64,000 nucleotides of DNA from assembly GCF_007748195.1 (NCBI RefSeq), contig NZ_CP037920.1, positions 806,001-870,000 of the forward strand, given 5' to 3'. Shown here one piece after another: positions 1,645 through 53,896 of the stretch. Each line of letters begins with the position of its first letter. Positions within the stretch are counted from its first letter, which is position 1. The position numbers and the translations under genes were made by a program. Source of the stretch: Gimesia aquarii. Lineage in GTDB: Bacteria > Planctomycetota > Planctomycetia > Planctomycetales > Planctomycetaceae. A model generated the notes under the pieces. That model saw only the letters and a list, made by a program, of their open reading frames with translations, was not told the DNA's origin and ran no database searches.

Positions 1645-1870
1645 GTTCATCCTCCATTACCACTCCCTCAACCGAACTCGTACCAACAAATCATCCAATG
1701 CCGAAGCACTGCTGGGCACTTCGGGCAAAGATCAAGGGTAGGCAATCGTAGAAGCAAATGCTGCTTGGGGTTCAGGAATTTAGGGCTGTGATCCCAAGTC
1801 TGTATTGGAAGTATTGAAACACACTGTGACTACTTCTGAAAGTAACTCATAAATTTTAACACAATAAAGA

Positions 1871-1944
1871 GACGGTGGCTGGGGTCGAACCAGCGTCCAC
1901 CCGGTCCCAGAGCCGGGCGCTCTACCACACTGAGCTACACCGTC
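1871..1944 (-). tRNA. Atypical tRNA gene, 8-nt anticodon loop, identity undetermined
   Basis: The minus strand folds as a full cloverleaf. It has a 7-bp acceptor (GACGGTG/CACCGTC), a D arm (GCTC/GAGC) with a GG-containing loop, a 5-bp anticodon stem (CCCGG/CCGGG), a 5-base variable region and a perfect T arm (GCTGG TTCGACC CCAGC). The anticodon loop CTCTGGGA has eight bases instead of seven. Read from the first T it gives CUG (Gln). Read like the common proline loop CUUGGGA with one inserted base it gives UGG (Pro). The base after the acceptor is T and no CCA is encoded. It ends five bases from the stop of the neighbouring gene. It may be a +1-type or special tRNA, or a decaying copy. Confidence 0.75.
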
Positions 1945-3426: not shown

Positions 3427-4185
3427 TCACTTAAATATATTTTTAACGAACTCACTGTACTCGTCCTTCATCGGCAGATCATAATCTTTCTTTATCCTAC
3501 GCCGCTGGGCGATAACATCCTCGCCATTGATGGGATTAACAGCAGGCTTTTCGTAAACTTCCCAGTACAAGCCGATTCCACGTTTTTGCCAGTCGGGCAC
3601 ATCATTGAAATTGATGCCATATTGAAAAAGAAGTTCGTTTTTCTGACTGACAGATAACCCAAGTAATCGCTTGGTAGCAGCTTGCTCGTCCAGACAATCT
3701 TTTCGAAGTGTCCAATAACAATATGCACTCAAGGCGTTTCTGACAGCGTCCTCATTCCGCCAACGGAAATAGTCCACCACCAGTTCCACACTTGGCAATT
3801 GAGAGATTCGACAATCGAAAGTCGCCACATCTCCAATTAAGAGAGAAAACTTGGCACTGGCTTCTGCTGCTAATGTTGAGTTGTACTTACGGAGTTTTCT
3901 ACCAAAGAGTTGATCTTCGAGAGAAAACAGCAAAGAAATCTCATCACTTTCGGTGTAAGCGTAGAGTACCCGAAAACCACAAGTCATCAGTGATTCGGTA
4001 GTGGCCACCATCAGGTCTCGAAAGCGTTCATCAAATGGAGCTTCAAACTGGCAAACCTCTTTCGTCAATCGGGTAAAGCTGCGGCCATCCAGTCGAGCCA
4101 CCATGAATAGACCGGGGAGAACACAGTAATCGGCAGCGGTTTCAAAAACTCGCATTTTCTTGTCAAGTTCGTTAAATTTCTTCAT
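3427..4185 (-). CDS. Thg1-like tRNA 3'-5' nucleotidyltransferase
   Basis: A 252-residue protein with the signature of the Thg1/TLP family, which adds nucleotides in the 3'-to-5' direction to the 5' end of tRNA. The metal-binding segment RLDGRSF (residues 31-37) and the second metal site TESDEIS (78-84) are both present and intact. In bacteria such Thg1-like proteins are thought to repair 5'-truncated tRNAs rather than to add G-1 to tRNA-His. The ATG at 4185 has GAGGAATGGA upstream and lies inside the end of the kinase gene (14-base overlap), so translation is probably coupled. An atypical tRNA gene lies 1.5 kb downstream. The family call is firm; the RNA substrate is unknown. Confidence 0.88.
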   Translation of the reverse strand: MKKFNELDKKMRVFETAADYCVLPGLFMVARLDGRSFTRLTKEVCQFEAPFDERFRDLMVATTESLMTCGFRVLYAYTESDEISLLFSLEDQLFGRKLRKYNSTLAAEASAKFSLLIGDVATFDCRISQLPSVELVVDYFRWRNEDAVRNALSAYCYWTLRKDCLDEQAATKRLLGLSVSQKNELLFQYGINFNDVPDWQKRGIGLYWEVYEKPAVNPINGEDVIAQRRRIKKDYDLPMKDEYSEFVKNIFK

Positions 4186-4618
4186 TCCATTCCTCGATGA
4201 CGAATTCACCGCTTTTAATTTGGACGTAAAACAATTGATCGAAGCCCTCGTCAAACGAAGGTAGTTCGAGTTTTGTGGCTATCGATAATACTGCAACATC
4301 ATGAACTCGTTCCGTTTCCGAACGAATCTCATTCCTTTTCAAGCACTCCTCGATCACTGATTGAAAGTAATATCCAACCACATCCAACCGGGCAGTTTTG
4401 GCAGCTTTAATGTACCTAGACCGATCTGCTCTGGTTGGGTTCGTGTTGTCGATAACAAACCTTTGTTTAGTCTGAAGGCACGCTTCGAGAAGAAGCAGTT
4501 CTCTGTGCCGAGTTTTCAATAGGTCGAGGTTAATACGAACGTGTGTAGAGAAGAATCGCTCTTTGTAAAAGGACGATTTTCCCGACGCAGGCAAACCCAT
4601 AAAGACGACCGCTTCCAT
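4172..4618 (-). CDS. P-loop kinase of the polynucleotide kinase / AAA_33 type
   Basis: A 148-residue single-domain protein. It starts with a Walker A loop, GLPASGKSS (residues 8-16), as in T4 Pnk-type 5'-OH kinases and related small-molecule kinases. An Asp-containing strand follows (FVIDNTNPTRADRSRYI, about 55-72), typical of AAA_33/zeta-like kinases, and then an R-rich lid (KRNEIRSETERVHDV). No phosphatase or ligase domain is attached. It is the first gene of a two-gene overlap with the Thg1-like gene. A 5'-end kinase plus a 3'-5' polymerase makes RNA 5'-end healing a natural hypothesis. A nucleoside or antibiotic kinase cannot be ruled out from sequence alone. Confidence 0.7.
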   Translation of the reverse strand: MEAVVFMGLPASGKSSFYKERFFSTHVRINLDLLKTRHRELLLLEACLQTKQRFVIDNTNPTRADRSRYIKAAKTARLDVVGYYFQSVIEECLKRNEIRSETERVHDVAVLSIATKLELPSFDEGFDQLFYVQIKSGEFVIEEWNEEI

Positions 4619-5070: not shown

Positions 5071-5646
5071 TCACATTCTCAAGTACCTTTGCACGGTCCT
5101 CGTGCTGGTCCCTAGAGCGTTTGCGATCTCACCAATCTTTAGCCCTTGATCTCTTAGTACATGAGCACGAGCAGGCTTGGCTTTGGTTGTCCCCAGTTTC
5201 CTTCCCTTATAGACTCCTCTCTTCTTCGCCACCTCGACTCCAGCCATCTGCCGTTGCTGTCGGTATTCGAGTTCAATTTCTGCAAGGCCCAACATTACAG
5301 CGGCGATCATCCGACCCACCGCTCCATTGAGTTCAATCATCTGCGTGATCACGACGATTTTCAAATCACGCTCGCACCAATCGGCAAGTAAGGTCACACC
5401 ATCTTTCAGCCGCCGAGATAAACGATCCAGCTTCCAGCAGACAACTGTTTTGATCTGCCCATTAAAGATGTCGGCTTGTAGTCGCTCGAACTCGGGACGC
5501 TTGAGAGTCTTACCCGACTCTTTGTCGATGTACCATGTAACTTGGCTTTCATCGTAGCCGTTGGCCTTGAGCCACTTGTTGATTTCGGCGACTTGGCTGT
5601 CGGCTTTCTGACGAGCCGTACTCACTCGGCAATATGCAGCGATCAT
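5071..5646 (-). CDS. Serine recombinase (resolvase/invertase family)
   Basis: A 191-residue protein with the complete small serine recombinase layout. The catalytic Ser is in YCRVST (Ser 9). The conserved WKLDRLSRR block follows at about 70-78, then the long E helix (GRMIAAVMLGLAEIELEYRQQR) and a C-terminal HTH (GLKIGEIANALGTSTRTVQRYL, about 168-189). Such enzymes resolve cointegrates or invert DNA at crossover sites. The start at 5646 has an AAAGGA ribosome site. It is the last gene of the minus-strand set that carries the AGGACACCGG element. Its target site is not identifiable here, although maintenance of the island or its replicative intermediate is likely. Confidence 0.9.
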   Translation of the reverse strand: MIAAYCRVSTARQKADSQVAEINKWLKANGYDESQVTWYIDKESGKTLKRPEFERLQADIFNGQIKTVVCWKLDRLSRRLKDGVTLLADWCERDLKIVVITQMIELNGAVGRMIAAVMLGLAEIELEYRQQRQMAGVEVAKKRGVYKGRKLGTTKAKPARAHVLRDQGLKIGEIANALGTSTRTVQRYLRM

Positions 5647-5811: not shown

Positions 5812-5820
5812 CCGGTGTCC
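5812..5820 (-). promoter_or_regulatory. AGGACACCGG-type repeated element, copy 1 (degenerate)
   Basis: The plus strand reads TTTCCGGTGTCCGAAG, matching the core CCGGTGTCC but not the following T. It lies 38 bases after the stop of gene 5858-6103 and 166 bases before the recombinase start, so its spacing differs from the other copies. Confidence 0.4.
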
Positions 5821-5857
5821 GAAGTGAGGCTCTCATCCTTGAAAGCCTCACCATCTA

Positions 5858-6103
5858 CTATTCAGGAGAAAAGCCAAAGTAATAGCGAGGAGAATGTTGC
5901 AGCATGACGCTCCCCTTTACGCCATCACATTTTCTCTGCACGATGCAGAAAGGGGAACAGAATCCCAAGACAGTGAATTCTTCTTGAAGGGAGGTCGTGT
6001 CCCACACTTCGCCATGCTTCGATTCCAAATACTCCCGGCTCCCTTCAACGGAATTGATTGCTGTTGTCATCAAACGGCGAGTTATTTCTCTTGGGTCAGA
6101 CAT
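5858..6103 (-). CDS. Small hypothetical protein
   Basis: An 81-residue soluble protein that I do not recognise. The start chosen is the ATG at 6103, which has AAAGGA at good distance; an upstream in-frame ATG at 6139 has none. There are two Cys close together in the middle (FCSPFC) and one more a few residues on, and the C-terminus is aromatic. It belongs to the minus-strand backbone genes, and a copy of the repeated AGGACACCG element sits 47 bases upstream. Confidence 0.5.
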   Translation of the reverse strand: MSDPREITRRLMTTAINSVEGSREYLESKHGEVWDTTSLQEEFTVLGFCSPFCIVQRKCDGVKGSVMLQHSPRYYFGFSPE

Positions 6104-6149
6104 GTGTATTCCTTTCGGTGAGCAAGTTGTTGTTTCCACAGTCGTTTGT

Positions 6150-6158
6150 CGGTGTCCT
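6150..6158 (-). promoter_or_regulatory. AGGACACCGG-type repeated element, copy 2
   Basis: The plus strand reads TTTGTCGGTGTCCTACTT, so the minus strand is GTAGGACACCGAC. It lies 47 bases upstream of the ATG at 6103, within the 44-48 base spacing shared by five copies. The function is unknown. Confidence 0.6.
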
Positions 6159-6167
6159 ACTTACCGC

Positions 6168-6602
6168 TCACTGGCATTTTGCTGCACGACGAACACGACG
6201 TTTCTCTGCTACACGCTGATGATGTAGGAGAACTTGCTCCCGCCACTCTGCGTTGCCGCCGTATTGTTCAAAAGGCACCATTGCCAAATACTTCAAAGGA
6301 CAGGAGAAGAAGTAAGGACCACATAATTCCTCAAGATCCTTGTAACCCCATCCATCGCCGTTTTGATGTCTCAATAGGTCGCACTGAATCCAACGCTCTT
6401 TGGGACTGGATTCAGCGTCATCTTTGGTGAAAGTGCGTTCCCAAACACTCCAAAGGACTCCTGAAAAACTGCCACCCCGATAGCAATGAGCGAGGCACGT
6501 GCTCGTGACGACAAGGCCGTCAAGATTCGTCCGCTCCCAACCTTCGGTTCGTTCCTCGATCAATCCTTTGCGAGTGCTGCCGCATTTGAAAAGCCATCCC
6601 AT
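6168..6602 (-). CDS. Hypothetical protein
   Basis: A 144-residue protein that I do not recognise. It is Trp- and Cys-rich (GWLFKCGSTRKG, LWSVWERTF, ELCGPYFFSCPLKYL) and has a basic C-terminal tail (VAEKRRVRRAAKC). No signal peptide is apparent. The ATG at 6602 has GGGAGA upstream. A copy of the repeated element lies 44 bases before the start. The Cys/Trp content suggests a compact, possibly metal-binding fold, but this is a guess. Confidence 0.5.
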   Translation of the reverse strand: MGWLFKCGSTRKGLIEERTEGWERTNLDGLVVTSTCLAHCYRGGSFSGVLWSVWERTFTKDDAESSPKERWIQCDLLRHQNGDGWGYKDLEELCGPYFFSCPLKYLAMVPFEQYGGNAEWREQVLLHHQRVAEKRRVRRAAKCQ

Positions 6603-6645
6603 GTTTTTCTCCCGTGAAGAATATTATTGATTTACAACTGGCTTT

Positions 6646-6654
6646 CCGGTGTCC
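6646..6654 (-). promoter_or_regulatory. AGGACACCGG-type repeated element, copy 3
   Basis: The plus strand reads GCTTTCCGGTGTCCTGTTTT. It lies 44 bases upstream of the ATG at 6602. Confidence 0.6.
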
Positions 6655-6667
6655 TGTTTTGGGGCAA

Positions 6668-6982
6668 TCAATATTCTTCCGGCAGGAGTAGCGTGGTTGC
6701 AGATCGATGACCGTTACCGTCTTCGGCTTCTGTAATGATCCAGATTTTGACGCCTTTCGAAGTCTTGAAGGCTGATAGAATTCGGCTTCCGTCCTTTACT
6801 GCATCGCCATTGAGTTCATGGTCTTCATTGCATAGTTCGCCCTGTTCAAGCTGGAAATGACGTTTGAGAAACTCATTCGGTGACTGGCTACTCGCTTCTA
6901 GAGCCTCCAATGCACCCGGAGTAGCGACAACTGTTCCCAACTCAAATTTTGGACTGGTCGTTTTGCTGTTTTGACTGGTCAT
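6668..6982 (-). CDS. Small hypothetical protein
   Basis: A 104-residue protein with no recognised domain. The start at 6982 (MTSQNSKTT) has AAGGGA upstream; the longer open frame reads through the repeated element and has no ribosome site. The middle segment (ELGTVVATPGALEALEASSQSPNEFLKRHFQLEQGEL) and the C-terminus (GSRILSAFKTSKGVKIWIITEAEDG) resemble small planctomycete or plasmid proteins of about 100 residues that are often found next to ArdC-like genes. I state this from memory of such islands, with low certainty. The repeated element is 45 bases upstream. Confidence 0.55.
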   Translation of the reverse strand: MTSQNSKTTSPKFELGTVVATPGALEALEASSQSPNEFLKRHFQLEQGELCNEDHELNGDAVKDGSRILSAFKTSKGVKIWIITEAEDGNGHRSATTLLLPEEY

Positions 6983-7026
6983 GCTTTTCCCTTCAGATTG
7001 AGGCGACTTTTGATTTGCCCTGCTTC

Positions 7027-7035
7027 CCGGTGTCC
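7027..7035 (-). promoter_or_regulatory. AGGACACCGG-type repeated element, copy 4
   Basis: The plus strand reads TGCTTCCCGGTGTCCTACCA. It lies 45 bases upstream of the ATG at 6982. Confidence 0.6.
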
Positions 7036-7336
7036 TACCAGTCCTACCCATCGAGACGTTTTGCATTTCGTCTGGCTGGGTACTTGGGAATGACCGTTTC
7101 AGAAATGTTATTGAAAATGTCGGCCAGAGAGTTTGCTGAAAGGATGGCGTTCTCTGGTGTTGAACCATTGGTGATGAATAGTGAAGGGCTGGAATGCTTT
7201 ACTCAGTGCAGGCCAATGTGTAGAAGGGAAAGCATTTGAGGCAGAGGTGTTTTATGCTTTTGAACAAGCAGCTTTCGGTTAAAGGGCAGCACAAGGCGTT
7301 TAGAGCGGGGATGAAGGCTAAAATCGAGTAAGAGTC

Positions 7337-7936
7337 TTATTGCAGTAAGTTGTGATGGATTGCCCAAGACTCAAGATACTTGTGAGCATGAGGGGAGCTT
7401 TTCTCATAAGCCACATCGAACAATTCTTTAGCCCGAACTTTGTCCAACAATGCGACTGAGATCATCGACGCCATAATTGTATTTCCCGTTCGTTCTGCTT
7501 CATCACGGGCAGCGTTCAAATTACTGATACGGAGAATCCATCCTTCACCGTATGAATCCCAAGCTTCAGCAACTTCACTGGCTAAGTGGTCGATGTCTGA
7601 CAATGGAGTTGCTACCCACCAGTAATCATCGTGTTGTGGCATTAAAAAGCCGATACGTTGCCGAAGCGTGCAATGATACTCTTTAGGCAAACCATTAAGC
7701 GGCGGTTCTTGTGAGATTTCCCGAACCAATGGAAAAAACACTCCGAGGTTGATTGTGAACTTCGACAACTCAGCCGTGTTCCCTTGGCTTGATTGAACAT
7801 TCACCACTTGAATCACATCATCAGATTCGTGATAAAAAGTTCGCCCTCTCTTCTTGTAGCCAGCAGCCTTCAAGAGTGGATGAAGACCACGTTTCACAAT
7901 TTCATCAACAATTTTGTGTGCAGGAACTTGCGACAT
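7337..7936 (-). CDS. DUF4304-like protein
   Basis: A 199-residue protein with the pattern of DUF4304: a first helix (KIVDEIVKRGLHPLLKAAGYKKRGRTFYH) followed by strands and a conserved aromatic core. The function of the family is unknown; members occur singly in many genomes and in mobile DNA. The ATG at 7936 is preferred over an in-frame upstream start at 7969 because the N-terminal family match begins there, although no strong ribosome site is seen. It stands apart from the genes with the repeated element: none lies in front of it. Confidence 0.6.
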   Translation of the reverse strand: MSQVPAHKIVDEIVKRGLHPLLKAAGYKKRGRTFYHESDDVIQVVNVQSSQGNTAELSKFTINLGVFFPLVREISQEPPLNGLPKEYHCTLRQRIGFLMPQHDDYWWVATPLSDIDHLASEVAEAWDSYGEGWILRISNLNAARDEAERTGNTIMASMISVALLDKVRAKELFDVAYEKSSPHAHKYLESWAIHHNLLQ

Positions 7937-8137
7937 TTTATCGTCCAGAAAGTTATTGAATAAAACCAATGATGATGACTATATGATACAGTAACACAAG
8001 CTGGTTTAGGAATTCAATTTACAACCATCTTTCAAGCCATGCTCTTTAGCGAGAAAGTTTCAATCGCCATGAATACATAATTTCATGGCACTCATCGGCA
8101 ACCTGACAGTCAGTACAAAAGTCGGGACATCAGCCGC

Positions 8138-8254
8138 TCAATTTAGTTGTAAGATGAAGTTTCCTCCAGCATTGCACTTTTCGCTGTCGTCGAGTTCGGC
8201 GATGTTGTCCTGACCGAAGCTGTCGCTTCCATTCAGTTTTTCGGGGAGATTCAT
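8138..8254 (-). CDS. Small acidic protein, 38 aa
   Basis: An ATG at 8254 with a well-spaced AAGGA site starts a 38-residue acidic peptide (MNLPEKLNGSDSFGQDN onward, ending in NFILQLN). The same frame stays open upstream to 8443, through a Cys-rich stretch (CRELC, CNLECRFCKR) that resembles a zinc finger. The real protein could therefore be longer, starting at 8281 or 8443. The upstream part contains repeat copy 5, which is non-coding elsewhere, and this favours a short form. Confidence 0.35.
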   Translation of the reverse strand: MNLPEKLNGSDSFGQDNIAELDDSEKCNAGGNFILQLN

Positions 8255-8414
8255 TTCGCATTCCTTACTTTTCCAATCCATAATTATGTTGTTGCGTTTA
8301 CAGAAACGGCATTCAAGATTGCAAATCTGATCTTGATCGTGTCGATGGAGACATAGTTCCCTACACCGTAGAAAACCGGAAACGTGGAGTCCTGATGTTT
8401 CAGTGGAAACTTTC

Positions 8415-8423
8415 CCGGTGTCC
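8415..8423 (-). promoter_or_regulatory. AGGACACCGG-type repeated element, copy 5
   Basis: The plus strand reads TTTCCCGGTGTCCTTACCC. It lies directly after the stop codon of the AAA ATPase gene (8424) and 161 bases before the ATG at 8254. Confidence 0.55.
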
Positions 8424-9365
8424 TTACCCACCGTATTCGGCACAGAAGCGTTGAAGACAGCGATAAAAACTTGCTCTCGACTTACCTGTAGCTTCCCGCC
8501 ATGCCTTCTCTTGCTCTTGCACGCTATCGGGATGTTTCTGGATCGCTATTTGCAGAATTCGCAAATCCTTCGTCTTGCTATCGAGTCGCTTTGTAGATTC
8601 ATTTTTTCTCCCGAGCGTTCTCAACTGGCTCTTGATCATTGGTCGCCAATCGATGCCTTCGCCACGAGCGTACAAGAGTTTCCGCAATGAAGGACTAAGC
8701 AATCTCATCGAAAGCTGCCTATCATCCGCATTCTCTGCGATGTAATCGATCACCATCCCGCAATCTTCGGGTGTCAGATGATGGAAGCCCTTTTTCGAAA
8801 TGGATCGCATCAGATCGATTACTTCTGCATTAGTAGCTGACAACTCAAAAATGTCACATCTCGACAGAACAGCTTTGAAGGCGTCATTACGACGAGGCAT
8901 CACATTGGCTGCAAAGATGAATCGTGCCGTTGTTTCAAATTCAGATGGCAAGCCATCGGGCAGTTGTGAGCTTCCATACGTGACCGTTCTTGGTGATCCC
9001 CATAAACAACTTCTGAGCAATCCCAGATGAGGCATGGACGAATACATTGAGTCCACATCATCAAAGAATAATGTCTCTTCACCTCGAAATCGGAATAAGG
9101 TTGTGTACAAAGCCAAGGGCGTAATGTGCGAATTGATCAGGATCGGCTCGATGCCTTCTTCATCTAATGTCTGGAGAATCGTCCGGCTTTTACCAAGCCC
9201 GCCTTGGGCTCCGTACACAAACAAAGCATGATTATGCTTGCGAGCAACCAGCCGCACATGATGAGCAAGAAGTTGCTGTCGTTCTTCAAGAGCGTTTACG
9301 GGTTTTTCAAACGTGGAATTCTGGAAAGGTGAAGGCTGGTCGTTATTATCGTTCGGCATGTTCAT
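8424..9365 (-). CDS. AAA-type ATPase of the mobile element backbone
   Basis: A 313-residue ATPase. It has Walker A GAQGGLGKS (residues 52-60), Walker B TLFFDDVD (about 98-105), a sensor-like N in FIFAANVMP (about 150) and a C-terminal winged-helix-like segment (TGKSRASFYRCLQRF). The layout, a small AAA module with a C-terminal DNA-binding helix, suits a plasmid or ICE replication or partition helper or a DnaC-like loader. The start at 9365 has GGAGA upstream. It lies between the ArdC-like gene and small unknown genes on the same strand, with a repeated element 48 bases before the start. The exact role is inferred from fold and context only. Confidence 0.65.
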   Translation of the reverse strand: MNMPNDNNDQPSPFQNSTFEKPVNALEERQQLLAHHVRLVARKHNHALFVYGAQGGLGKSRTILQTLDEEGIEPILINSHITPLALYTTLFRFRGEETLFFDDVDSMYSSMPHLGLLRSCLWGSPRTVTYGSSQLPDGLPSEFETTARFIFAANVMPRRNDAFKAVLSRCDIFELSATNAEVIDLMRSISKKGFHHLTPEDCGMVIDYIAENADDRQLSMRLLSPSLRKLLYARGEGIDWRPMIKSQLRTLGRKNESTKRLDSKTKDLRILQIAIQKHPDSVQEQEKAWREATGKSRASFYRCLQRFCAEYGG

Positions 9366-9412
9366 TTCAAATTCTCCGTAGCGAAGTTGATTGTGTCTTG
9401 TTGTTTCTCTTG

Positions 9413-9421
9413 CCGGTGTCC
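9413..9421 (-). promoter_or_regulatory. AGGACACCGG-type repeated element, copy 6
   Basis: The plus strand reads CTTGCCGGTGTCCTATTTC. It lies 48 bases upstream of the ATG at 9365. Confidence 0.6.
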
Positions 9422-9430
9422 TATTTCACT

Positions 9431-9653
9431 ATTTCAGAAGAGAAAAGAGACCAAGCGGATCGCTGTTAATGATCATTGGGGACTCCGAGACTTTGCAGTA
9501 GCAGTGGAGTGCCGTTGCTCGCTGGCCAGCCCGAGACAACGGTTCCGTTCTGCTTGCTTTGGCGTCAAAGCCGAAGCACCTTCGTGACCACCATCAGCGA
9601 TCCAACTTGGTTGTTTCGATCAGGACGAATGGCTTGCCGGTGTCCTGTTGTGA
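9431..9653. other. Non-coding spacer between two repeated elements
   Basis: No start-to-stop frame of useful length is found, although the stretch lies between two copies of the repeated element like the genes around it. A minus-strand ATG at the expected distance (about 9592) gives only a 9-codon frame. A neighbouring frame is open for about 54 codons without an early ATG and ends just before copy 6. It may be a decayed gene or a structured RNA; it contains the palindrome GCTGGCCAGC. Confidence 0.4.
9637..9645 (-). promoter_or_regulatory. AGGACACCGG-type repeated element, copy 7
   Basis: The plus strand reads GGCTTGCCGGTGTCCTGTTG. It starts nine bases after the stop of the ArdC-like gene. 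No convincing gene follows at the usual distance. Confidence 0.55.
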
Positions 9654-10571
9654 TCAAGCCGGGAGTAACTGTGACTCAACCGGCGACTGATGGAATGACA
9701 GCAGGTAGTCAGTTACTTTGGACGCCTGCGTACTAGCCTTGAAAATGAACGAAGGATCGTTCTTTAGAGCCTTCAACCAGTTGGAGATATATGCAGCGTG
9801 ATTTTCCAATCCTTCAGTCAATGGAATGCCCAGTTCAGAACAAACAAAGCAACACGATAATTCACCAATCAGTTCGCCCATCGCATACGTATTGCCTTCT
9901 TTGCTGCGATCCCAATCGAGTCGGTCAGGATGTTCTGCCCAATGTGCCATTTCATGGAACAAAGTTTCGTAGTAGGCCGCTCTATCAAACTGATGTTTGT
10001 GCGGCATTTGGATTTCATCGATTGCAGGATCATAGAAGGCTTTGTTCCCGCCGTGCATGATGCCTGCACCAGTGTTAGCGATTAGCTCATCAGCTTCTCG
10101 AAACGACACTTCAGGATCAGTATTGTCAGAGAATCCGACTCGCAAATGATCCAGATGATCGCCTTCAACCTGATCGATATTGAAAACAGTGAACTGACGC
10201 ATGACGCAATAATTGTCTTCGACCTCTTCACCCTTACGATTGGTCTTCGTCTTCGAAATCGGCTTGTAGAGAACGACTTTCGCACCCCATTTGTCCTTGG
10301 GAACACCCGATGGTCGTGCCATCACTTGTCCGCCAATTGACTGCCACTGTTTGTATGTAGCGAAGAATTTACCGTGACTCATGTGATCTCTGTTGTGCAT
10401 ACCGAGAAGCAGCACGTTAATCCCGTTGTAGGGTTTCTTTGTGACGGCGTTGGTTGGTCTGCCGCAGCATGGATCAGCAGACCACGGCTGTTTCCAAGGT
10501 GCGATCCCTTGTTGTAAAGATTTGATAATATCGTTAGTGATCTGCTGGCGAAGTTCTGTTTGGCTTGGCAT
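9654..10571 (-). CDS. ardC: ArdC-like antirestriction / ssDNA-binding zincin protein
   Basis: A 305-residue protein with the two-part ArdC layout. The N-terminal ssDNA-binding domain (ITNDIIKSLQQGIAPWKQPW, then TKKPYNGINVLLL) precedes a C-terminal gluzincin domain with HEMAH (about residue 207) and a downstream Glu-rich helix (GELIGELSCCFVCSELGI) that would supply the third ligand. ArdC proteins travel with conjugative plasmids and protect incoming single-stranded DNA or modulate restriction. The ATG at 10571 has AAAGGA. Two copies of the repeated element lie upstream (46 and 112 bases). This supports a conjugative origin of the island, although no relaxase or mating-pore gene is present in this window. 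Confidence 0.85.
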   Translation of the reverse strand: MPSQTELRQQITNDIIKSLQQGIAPWKQPWSADPCCGRPTNAVTKKPYNGINVLLLGMHNRDHMSHGKFFATYKQWQSIGGQVMARPSGVPKDKWGAKVVLYKPISKTKTNRKGEEVEDNYCVMRQFTVFNIDQVEGDHLDHLRVGFSDNTDPEVSFREADELIANTGAGIMHGGNKAFYDPAIDEIQMPHKHQFDRAAYYETLFHEMAHWAEHPDRLDWDRSKEGNTYAMGELIGELSCCFVCSELGIPLTEGLENHAAYISNWLKALKNDPSFIFKASTQASKVTDYLLSFHQSPVESQLLPA

Positions 10572-10616
10572 GGCGTCGTCCTTTCACAAGTGGATGAGTT
10601 GGTTACGACGTTGTTG

Positions 10617-10625
10617 CCGGTGTCC
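10617..10625 (-). promoter_or_regulatory. AGGACACCGG-type repeated element, copy 8
   Basis: The plus strand reads TTGTTGCCGGTGTCCTTTGT. It lies 46 bases upstream of the ardC-like ATG. Confidence 0.6.
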
Positions 10626-10682
10626 TTTGTGCCGAGGAAGTGGTCTCATTTTGCAGCGAATCATCAGCCGAACTTGCGTTTG

Positions 10683-10691
10683 CCGGTGTCC
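10683..10691 (-). promoter_or_regulatory. AGGACACCGG-type repeated element, copy 9
   Basis: The plus strand reads TTTGCCGGTGTCCTATTAC. It is 66 bases upstream of copy 8, so the ardC-like gene has two tandem elements. Confidence 0.6.
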
Positions 10692-10699
10692 TATTACAA

Positions 10700-11222
10700 A
10701 TGTTGTTCGCAGATTAGTTTTCGCATGAGAATCGAGAAGAGGCCATTTGTCGCAAATGCTCAAATGAGAATTTGAACTGAATTGGGACTGGAATTGGGAA
10801 CTCAATTGTATGAAGAGTGGTGCGAATAAGACTGCATTCGTAGTGTCTTACGGCTCAGTGCAGGTGAAGGGGGTGAGGCGAGTCTCATTTTTCAATGAGA
10901 ATGGAGTGGGCTTATACTGCGGTGGTACCCACGGCTTCCTCCAAGAAAGATAACGGCTTCAAGAGACTCGATAATGATAATGGTGATCGCAGTGTGGATA
11001 CTGTCTGCTGTTTGAGCAGGCATATCGTCGTCTCCATCGTCTAAGTTATGATTGGTACGATGAACTAGCGGGTGCCTAAATACACTTTGGGAAAATGGCA
11101 ATTACAATTTTTGGAATGGACTAGCAAAGCAAGGCACCTGTTATAGAAATGCAGTGAGGAATAGGATACCATGTAGACACACTTGCACGTTCGGTTTGCT
11201 CACTTTATTACAAAAGGCTTTT
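10700..11222. other. Intergenic region
   Basis: This is the divergent spacer between the minus-strand backbone genes and the plus-strand carbonic anhydrase. It should hold promoters for both sides. I see AT-rich stretches and short repeats of ATGAGAAT, but no convincing gene. A minus-strand frame at 10892-11101 lacks a plausible ribosome site and looks fortuitous. Confidence 0.4.
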
Positions 11223-11915
11223 ATGTCCGAATCAAAAAAACATGTTCAATCTAAATTCTGGAAACAGCAATCACCGATCAATTTGGCAAAGAGTGATTCA
11301 GTCCATGTGAAGTATCCAAAGTCGTTTCTAAAGTTTGACTATCAAGATGCACCATTCACTGGTCACATCGAAGGAGAACATGGGCATGAAAATTTCGTTC
11401 TTGATAAAGTTCATTCGGGAAAGAATCTACCACTACTGAAACTGGGTGATGTGAAAGCAGAACTTGTAAAGATTCATTTGCATACGAAGTCAGAACACAA
11501 TTTGGAAGGCAAGGATCTCGATGGTGAGATTCATTTGATTCACGAAATCGTTAATCCGACAGCCGGTTCTGATTTGCTGGTAGTTGGAGTGTTCTTCAAA
11601 GAAAGTAAATCTCCTATCAAATCAAATTTCTTTAGCAAGTGGGCCACTCGGACTAGCAAGGGCCCCTCTACCAAAGCTAAAGAAAAAGATGTTCAGATCG
11701 ACCCTCGCAAGCTATTGCCCAAGACGAATGAGTGGTATCGTTACGAAGGTTCATTGACCTCAGAACCTTACAGCGAGATCGTCAGTTGGTTGGTTTTCGT
11801 CGATTCAATTGGTGTTGGAACTGAAGACTTCAAAAAGTTAAAAAAGAATGCTCATCAACCAGAGCGCCCAGTACAGCCGATCAATCGAAGATTCGTGATT
11901 CGCAATTTCCAGTAA
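11223..11915 (+). CDS. Alpha-class carbonic anhydrase, cytosolic form
   Basis: A 230-residue protein with clear alpha-carbonic anhydrase marks. These are QSPINL near the N-terminus; the zinc ligands in KIHLHTKSEHNLEG and, 14 residues on, EIHLIHE (corresponding to His 94, 96 and 119 of the animal enzyme); the Glu of SEH; and YEGSLTSEPYSEIVSWLVF near the end. The residue matching Thr 199 appears to be Ser. The family hydrates CO2 to bicarbonate. The start at 11223 has AAAAGG five bases upstream. Bacterial alpha enzymes are usually exported, but no signal peptide is visible here, which is unusual. It stands alone on the plus strand. Loss of activity is possible. Confidence 0.8.
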   Translation: MSESKKHVQSKFWKQQSPINLAKSDSVHVKYPKSFLKFDYQDAPFTGHIEGEHGHENFVLDKVHSGKNLPLLKLGDVKAELVKIHLHTKSEHNLEGKDLDGEIHLIHEIVNPTAGSDLLVVGVFFKESKSPIKSNFFSKWATRTSKGPSTKAKEKDVQIDPRKLLPKTNEWYRYEGSLTSEPYSEIVSWLVFVDSIGVGTEDFKKLKKNAHQPERPVQPINRRFVIRNFQ

Positions 11916-53887: not shown

Positions 53888-53896
53888 CCAGTGTCC
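53888..53896 (-). promoter_or_regulatory. AGGACACCGG-type repeated element, copy 10
   Basis: The plus strand reads ATTGCCAGTGTCCTATTAC, one mismatch from copies 6 and 9. It lies 66 bases upstream of the clpX-like ATG, 43 kb from the other copies but again before a minus-strand backbone gene. Confidence 0.5.

Follow-up and report, generated by a model that had tools for sequence, protein, structure and literature searches.

The start-associated repeats named SAS and ESAS of Cluster K mycobacteriophages are described as asymmetric repeats of ~13 bp placed before a subset of genes (PMC3203893). Plasmids of the pLS20 family are described as carrying shared sequences, named EGeRS, upstream of ardC and other establishment operons; in that account, EGeRS1 sequences contain inverted repeats, extend over ~400–600 bp or more before operons and showed no recognisable constitutive promoter in one that was tested, and EGeRS2 sequences hold sigma-A promoters with repressor operators (PMC8708921). 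In the collection of papers that we searched, none dealt with planctomycetes together with ArdC, or together with islands, integrase and antirestriction. Here we describe a short repeat associated with an ardC-centred island of Gimesia aquarii, located in a 64-kb stretch of DNA (positions 806001–870000 of the 7.4-Mb genome, designated G000; hereafter the window). Our preferred reading, to which we assign a probability of about 0.5 on the basis of sequence comparison, is that the repeat would form the head of a common 5′ leader, acting in the transcript, on most units of the island, and would be read by a postulated island-encoded factor.

The tag array and its spacing

A first-pass annotation of the window had reported nine copies of the repeat in one orientation, and a recount returned eight exact copies of GGACACCGG and a ninth with a single mismatch, all on the minus strand within 4.9 kb (5812–10691; minus-strand spelling AGGACACCGGNAAG; matches to CCGGTGTCC in Table 1). 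No further exact copy of the 9-mer was found in either orientation in the rest of the window. With up to one mismatch allowed, the whole window held 16 matches against 10.2 expected, a count reached by 7 of 100 shuffles, so that the evidential weight rests on the exact clustered copies. Genome-wide, GGACACCGGNAA matched 10 sites (8 within the array, one ~7 kb to the left of the window and one elsewhere) and the reversed pattern matched 2. The tenth copy proposed near 53.9 kb was a one-mismatch match 74 nt before an ATG and is not clearly beyond chance; this site (53888–53896, minus strand) reads TAATAGGACACTGGCAA, resembles the array copies and could be a captured unit or a chance match. Upstream of the first copy, the Gimesia islands share ~200 bp of conserved sequence (within 10692–11010 of the window, minus strand), in which the start signals of the array may lie.

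The reported spacing of 44–48 nt to five start codons was exact on recount, and copies 1, 3, 5 and 9 have no start codon at the usual distance. The description of the copies as lying mostly just after a stop codon was slightly strong for the window, where a stop (counted for open reading frames of ≥40 codons) lies 0–13 nt upstream of four of the nine copies and 37 nt upstream of a fifth. The spacing was also measured in a pooled set of 335 motif copies from 35 loci, 20 of which were found through ArdC. A start codon follows the A of ACC by 28–82 nt in 258 of the 335 copies (median 49, quartiles 46 and 52), and an upstream stop is present in 222 (median 9). Among the 178 copies with both, the start distance has a standard deviation of 8 versus 17 for the stop distance, and the two are uncorrelated (r −0.02). 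A start at 44–55 nt was found for 183 of the 335 motif copies, whereas of 4982 ACC triplets elsewhere in these loci 409 had one. A chance origin of the array is rejected on the exact clustering, the genome counts and this start-distance enrichment.

The consensus is bipartite, with GRYACCnGCnA followed by YGTnA, a variable hairpin and then a Shine–Dalgarno site. The first block is partly fixed by the search patterns, whereas the second played no part in selection; relative to the ACC anchor, 65% of leaders have the G of the second block at +15 and 53% have its T at +16 (212 leaders, weighted by locus). This block is weak in Gimesia alone, and a set of 27 ardC leaders has an invariant G and an almost invariant T in it. 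The stretch between the second block and the Shine–Dalgarno site is rich in A and C and poor in G.

Spellings of the tag in related islands

A search for AGGACACCGGNAA covered 170 genomes of the order, the places listed forming an incomplete set. Within the genus, arrays with the spelling of the window were present in 4 of 17 genomes (G000 itself, G025, G029 and G033), and the remaining 13 held 0–2 copies each. The four Gimesia islands together contain 52 copies at up to one mismatch, a set that leaves out one one-mismatch copy (G000:794263), and 38 of these have a start codon 42–60 nt after the first G; a few copies are inverted, in the second arm of the islands. From one copy set, 11 positions judged to lie inside genes or off pattern were left out by hand. 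The genome count and the 17-genome survey agree with the expectation that the motif is not scattered through the host chromosome, and a host-wide signal is rejected (8 of 10 genome sites in the array; few copies in most genomes of the genus).

Further islands were collected with the protein of unit D, one of the units of the array (Table 1), which as a probe was found in 9 of 392 genomes of the phylum and as a profile with a stricter cut in 36 of 397 genomes of the class. Related islands have the same layout with a tag spelling proper to each island family (for example TGACACCCGCAA, AGGCACCTGCTAG and TTGTACCT). The conservation expected between sister islands was thus found for the position and spacing of the motif, but the exact letters change from one island family to another. 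We term these spellings dialects; they were chosen by inspection of k-mer tables, and some of the matches may be due to chance. The dialect TGACACCC(G/A)CAA was found in G028, G037, G027 and second islands of G029 and G033, ACACCCGCA in G355 and G151, CGGACACCARCTAC in G014, GGACACCGGCCAG in G049, ATACCCACTAC in G141 and AGCGGACACCG in G683. Two dialects therefore occur within one genome in both G029 and G033, so that the spelling belongs to the island and not to the host; by the same token, the host is not the sole source of a reader, which is expected to be island-encoded. Rarity in the host and recurrence in sister islands together support the proposal that the signal is dedicated to the element.

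An ArdC profile matched 111 of the 397 genomes and supplied 40 further loci, taken as the next-best matches with two on short contigs left out. The top over-represented word beat the best of 15 control segments in 15 of these 40 loci, and all 15 words contain ACC or ACAC; the best control score (20.8) came from L043, the far side of the G025 island. Of the 15, 14 are among the 35 array loci and the other is L134, while six counted loci fell below the control line (L130, L133, L155, L157, L159 and L160). The words include AGGCACCTGCTAG (15 copies, L147), TGACACC (L131), AGGCACCCCC (L146 and L152), TAACACCCGCTTG (L141) and TTGTACCTT (L168). Loci that were not counted but possibly hold weaker dialects are L134, L142, L144, L145, L151 and L164. 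No repeated word was found in the unit D loci that lack ardC (L110–L114), and L106, also without ardC, has possibly two copies. As judged from these comparisons, the tag pattern is common to many ardC islands of the class, not to all.

The same comparisons bear on a recombination site at unit boundaries, with the motif as the place where gene cassettes would cross over, in loose analogy to integron attC. Units are gained and lost in whole steps between sister islands, units F and G stand in swapped order between dialect groups, an opposite-strand gene lies within some units (unit H in G029; a carbonic anhydrase in L064 and L065), and a serine recombinase stands at the end of many arrays. However, the tight distance is to the downstream start and not to the preceding stop, the type of recombinase does not follow the dialect and unit order is otherwise largely conserved, and we consider such a site very improbable.

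Leader structure and modes of action

Leaders fold more stably than expected from their composition, with −14.2 kcal/mol on the sense strand versus −10.9 kcal/mol in shuffles (212 leaders), and the gain over shuffles is −3.3 on the sense strand versus −2.0 on the antisense strand. Hairpin arms pair better with their own partner (14.1) than with those of other leaders of the same locus (11.6; 208 leaders, own partner higher in 64%), and across loci the 26 ardC leaders compared gave 16.7 for own arms versus 13.5. By eye, the arms of ardC leaders change together (GTCGTCGTC/GACGACGAC, GCCGTC/GACGGC, GAGCGTC/GACGCTC and CATCG/CGATG). Terminator-like hairpins lie between motif and start in three unit I leaders (L064, L103 and L104).

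The motif also heads a unit without a protein. Directly after ardC, the island carries unit B, a conserved sequence with no open reading frame that in the window opens with the same motif as the mRNA leaders. Thirteen examples have 41 pairs in common, 21 of them with changes on both sides, with 92.5% of cells paired and a covariation score of 0.458 versus 0.254 in shuffles (0/500). A model built on these, run on 62 sources, recovered all 13 and clearly identified one more (L132, E 3e-8); one of the weaker matches (L104, E 2e-6) fell on the opposite strand of a known copy, which makes those around 1e-5, including second units in L136, uncertain. Five loci of the TGACACCC dialect have a shorter, well-folded sequence in the place of unit B, with no double changes, and G025 lacks the unit, with D following ardC directly. 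A search of the window and nine loci against Rfam (4227 covariance models, gathering threshold) returned only tRNAs, and unit B of the window had no match there up to E 1. We regard unit B as a candidate for a new structured noncoding RNA.

Since units with and without a protein share the same beginning, and since the constant distance is the one to the downstream start codon, we take the repeat as the head of a 5′ leader. This leader would comprise GRYACCnGCnA in the local dialect, a short variable stretch, a YGTnA block within or beside the hairpin, an A/C-rich stretch, the Shine–Dalgarno site and a start ~49 nt after the motif. The postulated island-encoded factor, knowing its own dialect, would bind the motif beside the hairpin in the transcript, and binding would decide read-through, processing, stabilisation or translation of the RNA of the unit. 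The ardC gene, other island genes and the unit B RNA might thereby be controlled together, with establishment of the island in a new cell as the purpose. What the sequences show directly is the motif, its dialects, the spacing, the second block, the excess of hairpins and the tag on a noncoding unit; action in RNA, an island-encoded reader and a role in establishment are what we infer.

Several observations weigh against this reading. RNAalifold predicted no pairs on a MAFFT alignment of 27 ardC leaders, and the Shine–Dalgarno site is barely more paired than in shuffles (0.61 versus 0.56). The arm-swap gain was 2.24 with A–C replacing G–T pairs versus 2.52, so that the swap does not distinguish the strands, a choice for which we rely on the folding energies. 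Only 9 of the 335 leaders are terminator-like, and general attenuation is rejected on this count. The 30 copies that follow a stop and have no downstream start do not have a weaker motif than the 212 with a start (p 0.65); many of them belong to unit B or other units without an open reading frame. None of the candidate proteins compared below emerged as the reader.

The first-pass annotation had left the choice between promoter, operator and RNA leader. Of these, an RNA leader is favoured by the hairpins, the tagged noncoding unit, the terminator-like unit I leaders and the lack, from 5812 to 11300, of any sigma-70-like site on the strand of the array (6.3 kb held 6 such sites in all, versus 6.7 in shuffles), with an operator or a promoter as possible alternatives. 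A dedicated promoter before each unit would explain nearly as much, and we treat it as a tentative second choice. The motif, with or without the second block, would then be recognised by a dedicated polymerase, sigma factor or activator, transcription would start close behind the motif and the RNAs would begin with the hairpin; the dialects would correspond to the differing promoters of related phage polymerases. A contiguous, oriented and strongly conserved motif at a fixed distance from the start is what such a promoter predicts, as are its presence before a noncoding RNA and the tandem copies at the head of the array, but the 52 Gimesia leaders have no conserved −10-like element, the array strand is without sigma-70-like sites, and no polymerase or sigma factor was recognised among the families compared across loci, for which no model search was made.

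Hairpins in front of the genes of ardC islands also recall single-stranded-DNA promoters active during conjugative entry, as in the leading regions of F-like plasmids, and such promoters are described before antirestriction genes of F and ColIb-P9 (PMC8708921). Against this stand the folding gain, which favours the sense strand over the antisense, would-be template strand, the lack of recognised promoter boxes, and the two oppositely pointing arms of the Gimesia islands, only one of which would be served by one entering strand; we consider this explanation improbable.

Returning to action in the transcript, one candidate is ArdC, which could be a sequence-specific reader of an island-private 5′ tag, each family having its own pair of ArdC and tag on coding and noncoding transcripts, so that the genes of that island alone would be switched on during its establishment. 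The ardC gene is present in all 15 islands collected through unit D or the motif, and ArdC identity correlates with the similarity of the motifs (rho 0.36 for the N-terminal and 0.21 for the C-terminal part, 35 loci), with rho 0.53 versus 0.34 for unit D over 105 shared pairs. On the other side, ArdC served as the probe for 20 of the 35 loci, which makes its presence there uninformative, and the correlation is as strong or stronger for other families (rho 0.61 for F in 10 loci, 0.37 for I in 17, 0.32 for E in 20 and 0.28 for G in 32). The ArdC of the window is only 43–45% identical to those of the same dialect, with no second ArdC in the genome; the L070 array keeps at least 5 copies with ardC elsewhere in its genome and not in the locus; and the possible pair of copies in L106 stands without ardC. 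This counter-evidence slightly lowered an already low estimate, and we regard ArdC as a doubtful reader, a candidate by company only. The single-stranded DNA binding of R388 ArdC has been called non-specific (PMC7213743).

Other candidates were rejected. Of the 35 array loci, only 15 have the unit D protein, whose similarity does not track the dialect, and serine recombinases of differing types occur within one dialect. Base pairing of the motif with unit B showed no dialect-matched complementarity (14 loci). Pairing with another RNA of the locus was likewise set aside (own anti-motif match 8.0 nt versus 7.5 nt for other dialects, p 0.03, 35 loci); the long matches are possibly copies on the other strand.

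Units of the island and comparison with known systems

The features of the array and its surroundings are listed in Table 1. Relatives of unit D were found in no plasmids, in no viral contigs by close patterns, and in phages only below 60% identity. To the left of the array, the stretch 3427–4618 (minus strand) holds a gene weakly similar to polynucleotide kinase (below the model cut-off) and a neighbour that resembles Thg1 (by eye; no model match); both have homologues in the G033 island. A tRNA at 1869–1944 (minus strand) has a four-base anticodon, ctgg, according to ARAGORN. The carbonic anhydrase gene beside the array has relatives (~31% identity) inside other arrays on the opposite strand (L064 6994–7650, plus; L065 6667–7323, plus). 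In G029 (L044 7534–9890) two tandem ardC copies each have a double motif before them, the first being close to the ardC of the window and apparently shortened. Among the loci L130–L169, a RuvB-like ATPase and a tyrosine-recombinase-like protein (by eye) are common to many.

Table 1 Features of the array and adjacent genes in the window
Feature	Position	Strand	Basis or remark
Motif copy 1, array head	10683..10691	-	Copy 2 follows 66 bp downstream; heads no gene itself
Motif copy 2, ardC leader	10617..10625	-	ATG at 10571
Motif copy 3, head of noncoding unit B	9637..9645	-	
Motif copy 4, unit D leader	9413..9421	-	ATG at 9365
Motif copy 5	8415..8423	-	Abuts unit D stop; no start at usual distance
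Motif copy 6, unit G leader	7027..7035	-	ATG at 6982
Motif copy 7, unit I leader	6646..6654	-	ATG at 6602
Motif copy 8, one mismatch, unit J leader	6149..6157	-	ATG at 6103
Motif copy 9, array end, upstream of serine recombinase	5812..5820	-	No start at usual distance
ardC, ArdC N-terminal domain and zincin-like metallopeptidase domain	9654..10571	-	Pfam
Unit B, structured noncoding RNA candidate headed by motif	9429..9645	-	Covariation; not in Rfam
Unit D, ATPase-like protein	8424..9365	-	Walker motifs by eye; no Pfam family
DUF4304 gene, not at usual distance from any motif copy	7337..7969	-	Pfam
Unit G, 104 amino acids	6668..6982	-	Found in 32/35 array loci
Unit I, 144 amino acids, no known family	6168..6602	-	
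Unit J, 81 amino acids, no known family	5858..6103	-	
Small serine recombinase, resolvase family	5071..5646	-	Pfam
Carbonic anhydrase gene beside array	11154-11915	+	Pfam

Taken together, the comparisons suggest that an island family-specific tag ~50 bases before most genes of mobile-looking planctomycete islands is a private joint switch of island genes. An element of this kind, which marks the majority of its genes with a leader of its own that each family spells differently, even side by side in one cell, would amount to a testable code, and the tag could help to locate ardC islands in Planctomycetes, together with their possible anti-defence genes. It is accompanied by a structured RNA absent from Rfam, and it bears on the open question of the function of phage start-associated repeats.

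The stoperators of Cluster A mycobacteriophages are short asymmetric intergenic repeats with a consensus proper to the phage group. The tag shares both properties, but its distance to the start codon is fixed and no repressor is known here. Integron attC arrays consist of modular units, each with a site and a hairpin, as in these islands, whereas the position of the tag is fixed to the downstream start and not to the preceding gene end, and no paired core boxes were noticed. The −35 and −10 hexamers of a sigma-70 promoter were not found before each unit. As with the EGeRS of the pLS20 family as described, a set of genes of the element that includes ardC is tagged by a shared upstream sequence; unlike EGeRS1, ~20 nt are conserved within a ~60-nt leader before single genes, and unlike EGeRS2, the array strand has no sigma-70-like site. 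The hairpin-forming sequence before antirestriction genes is a further likeness, to the single-stranded promoters described for conjugative plasmids (PMC8708921), which differ in that no promoter boxes were recognised here and the sense strand shows the larger folding gain. The SAS repeats are described as lying immediately upstream of the start codon, and the tag differs from them in its letters and in its position, a median of 49 nt upstream with a hairpin between. With SAS and ESAS, as described, it nevertheless shares the oriented short repeat before many genes of one element, the rarity in the host, the stop of the upstream gene sometimes lying inside the repeat and a spelling that varies between groups, as the SAS-associated inverted repeats do between subclusters.

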